Shown piece by piece: positions 61,554 to 64,000 of a DNA stretch of 64,000 bases. This DNA comes from Methylophilaceae bacterium (lineage in GTDB: Bacteria; Pseudomonadota; Gammaproteobacteria; Burkholderiales; Methylophilaceae), in assembly GCA_027488395.1 (NCBI GenBank), contig JAIYBT010000015.1:1-64000 (forward strand). Direction: 5' to 3'. Position numbers and translations under genes: made by a program. Position 1 is the stretch's first letter; the number at the start of each line of letters is the position of its first letter. The notes beneath the pieces are model-generated. The model saw only the letters and a list, made by a program, of their open reading frames with translations, was not told the origin of the DNA and ran no database searches.

Positions 61554-61625
61554 TTATTTGTTCATTACGTACATCGTTACTTCGAAACCGAAACGCATTT
61601 CAGTAGCAGCTGGTTTTGTCCACAT
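61554..61625 (-). CDS. pqqA: Coenzyme PQQ precursor peptide PqqA
   Basis: Not in the ORF track. ATG at 61625, preceded by AAGGAGAAATCACT. The product MWTKPAATEMRFGFEVTMYV plus MNK is 23 residues, the length and sequence pattern of PqqA, with the Glu and Tyr of E-V-T-M-Y that are cross-linked by PqqE to form pyrroloquinoline quinone. No pqqB, C, D or E gene lies in the window; downstream come a hairpin and an unrelated gene. Methylotrophs often have extra pqqA copies outside the biosynthetic operon. A strong own promoter would have to lie in the 128-base gap after the fusion gene. Confidence 0.93.
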   Translation of the reverse strand: MWTKPAATEMRFGFEVTMYVMNK

Positions 61626-61754: not shown

Positions 61755-64000
61755 CTAATTGCCCGCTAAGCCGCACCATTGCTTGATTTGACGGATTGCA
61801 CGACGCCAGCCTTTACGGCCAATGGTGCGCTTCAGCGTGACTTTAAAATCGTATAGATAAAACGGCCATAACATCGATGCCTGCAAGCGCGTGCCCGACC
61901 CCGCAAGGTAATGTTGCAACACGCGCTTGCGCCCAGACCAGTGCAGTTTATTTAAGGCACGGGTTAAATCTGCCAAGCCCAGCTTGCGTGGCACCCCCTT
62001 AGGATAGGCATGCAACCGTGCCGTATCAATTAAAACAAAGCGTATATCCGTTTCGTGACGTTGCACCAAAATATTGCCGCCCGAAAAATCACGGAAATAA
62101 ATACCTGCGCCATGCATATGCGCGCTAAATCTGGCAAAGGCGCGGTAAAGGGTTTCGTGAGTCACACCCTTAAACTGTTGCGCACCCTGACTAAACGCCA
62201 CAAAGGCCTCTGAAATGGCAAAGTCATGTTGCACAAATTCACAAATATAAAAATTTTTGCGCAACGTTGGGTCATTGCGGTGCTCAAAAAAAGCCACTGG
62301 CATGGCTGTCCCCACACCGCGCCGCATCAATTCCATCGCGCCATTCCAGCTACGTTTGGCTTTGCTGGGTTTTAAGCGATCTAACCATTGTTTATGCCAA
62401 TGCATGGTGATGGGCTGTTTAACGGTCACGCGCCGCTCGGGTTGACGCGGGTCGGGCATCGGCCAAATGGCATTACGCGCATGCCGTAATGCAGCTTGTT
62501 TGCTAGGCGCCTTTAAACGCTCGGGATGCCAAGCTTGCCATAACATGGCTGCCTCAGTGGCATCTTTAGCCAGTAGCATGCCGCGCCACTCACCTTCTTC
62601 TATCGGAAAATAAGTGCGGCCTGCCACATGTTGGTCAATCACCGTTCCAGTCAATGGGGAGTTCACTGGCAAGCACTCGATCACGGTGCCTAACGGCCAT
62701 GTCAGATACATAGGCGACTCTGTCACCAACGCAGCATGCACGATGGGTACGCCATCACGATCAAACAGTTGCGCTTGCGCAAGCGTCTCTGCGCTATACA
62801 GGTGTTTGAGGTGTGCGCATTGACCGTTAATGGTCCATGCGATATGCACCTCACGGTCATGCTGACGTAAATGATGCAACTCTAAGCCCGCTTGGCTGGC
62901 AATCGCCGCCACATACTGCGCACCATTGAGCCAATGCACTACGGTTTTAAACGCAGCAAAGCTCGGGTGTTGTCGATATTGATTGGGCTCGCCATCCGCA
63001 GAGGCATAATAGGCCACGCGCTCTAACGCTGGATAAGTGGCATCGCTTAAACCATCATCAATCAAGCCCTCTCGGTGGCAAATCATCGCCCCCCAATTGG
63101 CCTGTGTCACCGCGCCTGAAGCTGCCAGCAAAGTAAAATAGCGGGTTAAATAGTCTGCTTGTTTTTGCGCACCCGCAGGCAGTTGCCGTTGAATACGGTA
63201 AATCGCCCAAAAAGCCACCGATGACACCAATTTAGGCACACCGCGTTCAGCACCGATTTTTTGCATTAAACGTGCTTTTTTAATCAGGTTATAACGCAGT
63301 GCGCGCGCCCAACGATATTTTAAAATCCTAAAGTCGTATAACTCAGGTTGGATCACACGCTCGACAAACAGATTATTACTGTGCAAATCAGGCAATTGCT
63401 GTTGTTGGCCGAGCAGGTTGAGCACCGTGACATTATATAAAGGCTCAAAATCTTGTAAATTAGGCCCAATCACTGTTAACTGGTGGGCTTTAGCCATGCG
63501 GTAGGCGGTGTCCCAAGCCTGTAAAAATCCCGGTAGGCTGTAGCCTGACCATTTTTTGCGATTGATGGTGTTGCCAATTTCAACCGCCACAATTTGAGCA
63601 GCACATTGGTCGAGCACCGATGACACGAATTGTTGCCAGCCTTGATTTGCCTCAGCGTTTGGCATGCGTTTTGCGTCGGTGAGCGGCTGTACTAAGTGCA
63701 ATACCACTTGGAAATGTTCATGATGCAAGCGCGTTATCAAGCGCGTTTGATGCACACGCGCAGTATCATCGCTGACATCCACCCGCACCCGTTTGACCCC
63801 TAACTGGCGCAATGCCTGCAACACCACCTCATCGATAGCAGGGTCAACGTTGCTCGCCACACAAATACCGATAAAATCGTCGGCGAGACGATGGTTAGGC
63901 GTTGCTAAATGGCTATTGGCTAAACGCAAGCCGCCACCGGCGATATAACGCAGACCTTGCCAAATCACCTGACGGGTTAATAATGAGGGAGATGCGCGCA
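61755..64000 (-). CDS. Glycosidase-like domain fused to Kdo/WaaP-type kinase-like domain (5' end beyond window)
   Basis: The track's start at 63968 is a GTG; the frame stays open upstream to the window edge, so the gene is probably cut at its 5' end. Residues up to about 380 look like a glycoside-hydrolase TIM barrel (IAVEIGNTINRKKWSGYSLPGFLQAW, VIGPNLQDFEP, ATQANWGAMICH). The C-terminal 220 residues are a lipopolysaccharide-kinase-like fold: GVGTAMPVAFFEHR, FYICEFV, YFRDFSGGNILVQ (catalytic Asp and Asn) and FVLIDTARLH (metal Asp). No signal peptide is visible. Likely an envelope polysaccharide enzyme; the substrate is unknown. Confidence 0.75.
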   Translation of the reverse strand, partial: RASPSLLTRQVIWQGLRYIAGGGLRLANSHLATPNHRLADDFIGICVASNVDPAIDEVVLQALRQLGVKRVRVDVSDDTARVHQTRLITRLHHEHFQVVLHLVQPLTDAKRMPNAEANQGWQQFVSSVLDQCAAQIVAVEIGNTINRKKWSGYSLPGFLQAWDTAYRMAKAHQLTVIGPNLQDFEPLYNVTVLNLLGQQQQLPDLHSNNLFVERVIQPELYDFRILKYRWARALRYNLIKKARLMQKIGAERGVPKLVSSVAFWAIYRIQRQLPAGAQKQADYLTRYFTLLAASGAVTQANWGAMICHREGLIDDGLSDATYPALERVAYYASADGEPNQYRQHPSFAAFKTVVHWLNGAQYVAAIASQAGLELHHLRQHDREVHIAWTINGQCAHLKHLYSAETLAQAQLFDRDGVPIVHAALVTESPMYLTWPLGTVIECLPVNSPLTGTVIDQHVAGRTYFPIEEGEWRGMLLAKDATEAAMLWQAWHPERLKAPSKQAALRHARNAIWPMPDPRQPERRVTVKQPITMHWHKQWLDRLKPSKAKRSWNGAMELMRRGVGTAMPVAFFEHRNDPTLRKNFYICEFVQHDFAISEAFVAFSQGAQQFKGVTHETLYRAFARFSAHMHGAGIYFRDFSGGNILVQRHETDIRFVLIDTARLHAYPKGVPRKLGLADLTRALNKLHWSGRKRVLQHYLAGSGTRLQASMLWPFYLYDFKVTLKRTIGRKGWRRAIRQIKQWCGLAGN

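Follow-up and report, generated by a model that had tools for sequence, protein, structure and literature searches.

A predicted glycosidase-like barrel joined to a Kdo/WaaP-family kinase is a conserved gene architecture in Methylophilus and its relatives

The closest described relatives of the kinase studied here are WaaP (RfaP), the heptose(I) kinase with a solved structure (6dfl), and KdkA, the Kdo kinase of the same Pfam family. In WaaP, the substitution H161A is lethal and E78A results in a 128-fold sensitivity to EDTA (PMC6147952). In Bordetella, KdkA is followed by EptB, which is a precedent for a two-step phospho-decoration (PMC10743493). Two other groups resemble the module to which this kinase is joined. 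The first includes the glycosidases of GH39 and clan GH-A, e.g., PslG; enzymes of the PslG type act outside the cytoplasm. The second is the ectodomain of 4F2hc/CD98hc, an amino-acid transporter subunit, in which the TIM-barrel glycosidase fold is a non-catalytic module. We found no description of a glycosidase-kinase fusion of this kind with the few phrasings searched in the open-access literature.

The fusion shares with WaaP the beta3 Lys, the catalytic Asp, and the DFG-Asp, and its basic C-terminal helix resembles (a resemblance only) the acyl-ACP-binding subdomain of that enzyme. It differs in having about 490 extra N-terminal residues, Ser551 in place of the helix-C Glu78, Phe636 in place of the HRD His161, and the canonical Asn of ordinary protein kinases where WaaP has His168. 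Its score of 32 bits is far below the RfaP equivalog cut-off of 170 (NCBIfam), and its own genome encodes a separate WaaP-like gene. Like KdkA, it has an Asn in the catalytic loop, but it scores 21 bits against the equivalog cut-off of 142 (NF002475), combines an FRDFSGGN loop with a barrel, and has a neighbour resembling phosphoglycerol transferases rather than EptB. As in GH39 and clan GH-A, a predicted (beta/alpha) barrel is followed by a beta-rich domain and carries a conserved motif where beta4 ends, and the unfused homologues retain TEVNW at the beta7 position. However, the fusions have no match to a family HMM, have both catalytic Glu positions replaced, and are apparently cytoplasmic. 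The likeness to 4F2hc is one of functional analogy only: it is among the top Foldseek matches, but there is no sequence relationship and the superposition is weak (TM 0.18-0.33).

The window, i.e., the whole stretch of 64,000 nucleotides that was analysed, comes from a Methylophilaceae bacterium and is open on the minus strand as a single frame from 61755 to its edge. The named relatives of this bacterium are species of Methylophilus, which consume methanol, and its genome is accordingly placed in that genus. The fused gene (61755..64000, minus strand) encodes 748 aa; its stop is at 61755-61757 and its GTG start begins at contig position 64001, immediately beyond the window, and the complete 183-kb contig shows no internal stop. 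A gap of 10 bp separates it from the upstream gene. This confirms that a predicted glycosidase-like barrel and a PF06293 (Kdo/WaaP) kinase are joined in one intact frame, as a sequence-only reading of this DNA had proposed on the basis of a hydrolase-like and a kinase half; the motifs it singled out, YFRDFSGGNILV and LIDTAR, are present in the frame. Just downstream, on the same strand, lies a lone frame of 23 aa (61554-61625), shorter than the usual gene-length cut-offs, which resembles PqqA, the precursor peptide of pyrroloquinoline quinone.

The search for the same fusion in related genomes, suggested by that reading, found it at full length in 21 of the 22 genomes of the genus Methylophilus, the exception being an 82% complete genome. 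Across the family, the N-terminal module occurs in 77 of the 130 sampled genomes (11 of 24 genera). The frame that holds it measures 676-803 aa in 64 of these genomes and about 370-440 aa in the other 13, which all belong to genus g4. The family count of fusions (64/130) thus rests on frame length. Outside the family the module is rare: G085 and G404, from a second family within the order, each have an unfused copy, and G682, from a different order, has a fused one (811 aa). This fused copy, at L075:8427-10862, is the sole one among 54 genomes of its order and was probably acquired by horizontal transfer. The seven fused kinase domains that we sampled, G682 included, form one group in the tree (99/99 support), and the fusion has a fixed two-part architecture across species. 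Placing the unfused kinases as sisters of the fused ones is neither shown nor rejected by the tree test (p-AU 0.42).

The ratio dN/dS is mostly 0.02-0.08 for each of the barrel, the middle part, and the kinase in 14 species pairs. Strong purifying selection acts on every part, and the low values of the barrel indicate that it is not decaying. The recurrence of the fusion in 21 of the 22 genomes of the genus excludes chance or a frameshift; a frameshift confined to this assembly was one of the outcomes that would have undone the sequence-only reading. A merger of two adjacent genes by misassembly or frameshift, for which one could invoke the separate genes for the two halves in G085 and G404, is therefore rejected as next to impossible, given that over 20 separately assembled genomes, several of them single chromosome contigs, share the fusion at 46-64% identity, with a conserved linker and a low dN/dS over the junction.

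The N-terminal half matches no Pfam or NCBIfam family. Its predicted glycosidase-like (beta/alpha) barrel (residues ~40-345; 62967..63884, minus strand) was delimited with AlphaFold, Foldseek, and the unfused homologues of G085 and G404. It is followed by a beta-rich domain (residues ~355-436; 62694..62939, minus strand), identified by secondary structure and alignment and shared by the barrel-only proteins of genus g4. The AlphaFold models, run with five aligned sequences, show an alternation of strands and helices with pLDDT of about 80-90 for beta1-beta5; the second half of the barrel is poor (mostly pLDDT <50), and barrel models reach 58-63 overall. Foldseek matches are mostly TIM-barrel glycosidases (GH30, GH13, GH39-like, GH1, and a plant endo-1,3-glucanase, but also the pseudo-amylase 4F2hc), at low TM values (0.2-0.4). 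We regard a (beta/alpha)8 barrel, as announced from the letters, as probable, not proven.

Searches with the PF01229 and PF00150 profiles did not match the protein of the window's genome, and the barrel could not be linked by sequence to solved structures. The alignment of the barrel family with GH39 by hhalign places GNTIN exactly onto WNEPN, with a weak score, but against GH39/GH5 members the barrel scores no better than 218 unselected proteins used as decoys, a set into which four fusions had slipped that gave the top four scores; we therefore do not count this alignment as proof. The profile of the unfused barrels does pick up the window's protein (1.4e-12). An apparent unfused-barrel match in G122 (E 4e-4) was dismissed because the gene sits in what we take, from its sequence, to be a CRISPR Csy-type gene pair. 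A match of the N-terminus to the ACP family (E 0.2) was treated as noise.

None of the 24 fusions that we compared retains either of the two catalytic glutamates of clan GH-A. Thr145, which lies within EIGNTINRKKW where the predicted beta4 ends (63567..63569, minus strand), occupies the position of the acid/base Glu (NEP). The motif reads EIG[N/S]T[I/V]NR in the fusions and GNAINR, i.e., with an Ala, in the unfused proteins of G085 and G404. At beta7, Ser260-Ser261 in VSSVAFW (63219..63224, minus strand) correspond to the nucleophile position: the fusions have Ser there, in S-x-x-AFW, whereas the Glu is present in the unfused homologues, which read [IV]TEVNW. Hence, the first Glu is absent from fused and unfused forms, and the second is absent from the fused form only. 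Because both positions are replaced, hydrolysis by the standard mechanism is very unlikely, and the barrel half most likely grips a sugar rather than cutting it. The loss of both residues does not prove inactivity, since CmGH1, a member of GH39, has Gln and Tyr in their place and yet a weak glucosidase activity (PMC6933502).

This bears on the suggestion that one protein both cuts and phosphorylates an envelope glycan, with a barrel that hydrolyses or transfers sugar by means of non-canonical residues and a kinase that phosphorylates the same glycan. The example of CmGH1 (PMC6933502), the strong conservation of the barrel (dN/dS about 0.05), and the invariant or nearly invariant motifs DFE, NNLFxER, KKAxL, and xREGLI, the first of which, at the end of beta5, makes conserved acids available, are in its favour. 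Nevertheless, we disfavour it as rather improbable because both Glu are lost, to Thr and Ser, in 24 of 24 fusions. In addition, without an apparent signal peptide any cutting would be cytoplasmic, during the synthesis of the glycan, and the barrel-only proteins of g4 likewise lack the GNTINR motif. The alternative offered together with the cutting enzyme, a scaffold, is favoured for the barrel half alone.

The kinase half (residues ~490-744; 61770..62534, minus strand) was delimited by PF06293, WaaP 6dfl, and the domain bounds. PF06293 covers residues 535-690 with 36.7 bits (cut-off 21.3), a cut-off also passed in G212, G303, G682, G085, and G404, and among solved structures WaaP 6dfl is the closest in sequence (E 3e-8), in agreement with the WaaP/KdkA-like half first recognised from the letters. 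Lys528 in VTVKQP (62418..62420, minus strand), conserved in the alignments, is the equivalent of WaaP K51, the beta3 ATP-binding Lys. The catalytic loop, F636-R-D638-F-S-G-G-N643 (62073..62096, minus strand), keeps Asp and Asn in 24 of 24 fusions and starts with FRD in 22 of them and FND in G303 and G385. The replacement of its His by Phe was correctly read beforehand. Asp659 of LIDTAR (62025..62027, minus strand) is, by alignment to 6dfl and comparison of the fusions, the metal-binding Asp equivalent to that of DFG (WaaP D188). The beta3 Lys, the catalytic Asp, the Mg-binding Asn, and the DFG-Asp are present in all inspected fusions. A further change went unmentioned before: in the hmmsearch alignment to 6dfl, Ser551 in KAKRSW (62349..62351, minus strand) takes the place of the helix-C Glu78. 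The half ends in a conserved basic helix (LKRTIGRKG..R). Since protein kinase A has YRD at the position of HRD, the change of His to Phe does not by itself imply a dead kinase, and judging by its residues the enzyme is probably active but atypical. Fused and unfused kinases form a distinct subfamily by profile score (116-441 bits against at most 39 for other Kdo-family kinases); the profile had been trained on some of the kinases that score highly, but not on G404 (116 bits), G303, or G682. A search of plasmids returned only distant InaA-type kinases.

A gene of the PF00884 family lies directly upstream of the fusion in all 15 inspected Methylophilaceae loci other than that of G212 (two of them, L050 and L054, from the same genome). 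Because the two genes are separated by -4 to 16 bp, they are likely to form one operon. This neighbour most closely matches phosphoglycerol transferase I and lipoteichoic acid synthase, i.e., periplasmic proteins of the LtaS/OpgB-like type. In Methylophilus, the pair often follows genes for an Aas-type acyltransferase-ligase and an LplT-type transporter. In the window's genome, the fused gene lies beside such an operon and the PF00884 gene, outside the LPS core cluster, which counts against the core-sugar reading that we favour below. That upstream operon (L008:5583-10254) encodes the Aas-type protein (over the NF005959 cut-off), an amidohydrolase found in only some relatives, and the LplT-type transporter; this suggests that lipid turnover is tied to the PF00884 transferase. 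The LPS-core-type cluster of the same genome (L009:9029-18392, on contig C13) has three further Kdo-family kinase genes, one of them of 484 aa with two kinase domains, together with a GT9 gene and a carbamoyltransferase-like gene.

A glycosyltransferase directly upstream, as expected by the sequence-only reading, was found in one genome, nearly all others having the PF00884 gene. In this genome, G212, the upstream gene is waaC (heptosyltransferase I; TIGR02193, 341 bits for a cut-off of 185), with an overlap of 4 bases. A core cluster that lies alongside, in divergent orientation, encodes a glycosyltransferase, a WaaP-like kinase, a two-domain kinase, and a carbamoyltransferase-like protein. 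In both G085 and G404, a GT2 gene and a GT9 gene lie between the two separately encoded halves, all in one LPS-core-type cluster. No envelope partner was evident at the G682 locus.

The locus of genus g4, a streamlined genus, provides additional information. The order in G303 and G385 is glnK-amtB-[transferase-fusion]-mltA-apaG, and in G176 and G243, of g4, it is glnK-amtB-[barrel only]-mltA-apaG. At this site, g4 therefore has the barrel but neither the kinase half nor the transferase, which may lie elsewhere in the g4 genomes. We infer that the direction of change was a loss in g4. The arrangement fits a phospho-decoration task common to kinase and transferase and, for the barrel, a non-catalytic role of its own. 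The barrel-only genes (L046:9199-10398 and L047:9150-10388) have lost the GNTINR motif. The same locus has two sides for the idea that neither half is catalytic, the protein being an adaptor or regulator, made of a pseudo-glycosidase and a pseudokinase, that controls LPS or envelope assembly. Genus g4 does retain the barrel alone, and the fusions have Ser for the helix-C Glu and Phe for the HRD His, positions needed in WaaP (PMC6147952). On the other hand, the joint absence of kinase half and transferase fits a catalytic link, the ATP-binding Lys, the catalytic Asp, the Mg-binding Asn, and the DFG Asp are invariant in the inspected fusions, and the Asn is the canonical residue at a position where WaaP has His. 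We consider this idea unlikely.

The gene neighbours also leave a small chance that the kinase, with its LtaS/OpgB-like partner, serves an envelope glycan other than the LPS core, such as an exopolysaccharide, a teichoic-acid-like polymer, or a glucan. The best matches of the neighbour, given above, and the aas- and lplT-type lipid genes in its operon point in that direction. Yet the partner in G212 is waaC, beside an LPS core cluster, the separate halves in G085 and G404 are among LPS-core-type genes, and polymers of this sort are decorated outside, away from the cytoplasmic ATP on which a kinase depends. The link to osmoregulated glucans was rejected because MdoG, which acts in their synthesis, was not found in the window's genome, which is 92% complete.

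On balance, we favour as somewhat probable a cytoplasmic core-sugar kinase with a pseudo-glycosidase module that binds glycan, feeding a periplasmic phospho-decoration, the substrate being deduced from the context. The protein would be a sugar kinase of the Kdo/WaaP family, placed in the cytoplasm because it needs ATP and because hydropathy reveals no apparent signal peptide or transmembrane helix. It would probably be membrane-associated; an amphipathic N-terminal helix, with a high score in some members only, may perhaps serve as anchor. The barrel would have inherited a sugar-binding cleft from an ancestral glycosidase and would hold or measure the growing lipid-linked core oligosaccharide, so that the C-terminal kinase could phosphorylate Kdo or heptose close by in the inner core. 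Once the core has been exported, the LtaS/OpgB-like PF00884 transferase would attach a group of the phosphoglycerol type to that phosphate or near it. In g4, the barrel would persist as a binding protein, without the kinase half and the transferase at the locus.

We propose more tentatively, as a plausible refinement of this core-sugar kinase, that the domesticated and catalytically dead glycosidase reads the substrate, such that the barrel sets which core glycoform receives the phosphate. The living genomes could then be ordered from separate neighbours with one Glu lost, to the fusion with the second Glu lost, and on to the state in which kinase half and transferase have both gone. If true, a pseudo-glycosidase would be the substrate-recognition module of an LPS-type kinase, a dead glycosidase module being the unusual feature within the LPS kinase family. 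The core phosphate of Methylophilus and its relatives, and possibly also the phosphoglycerol group added after export, would then be gated by the length or type of the core.
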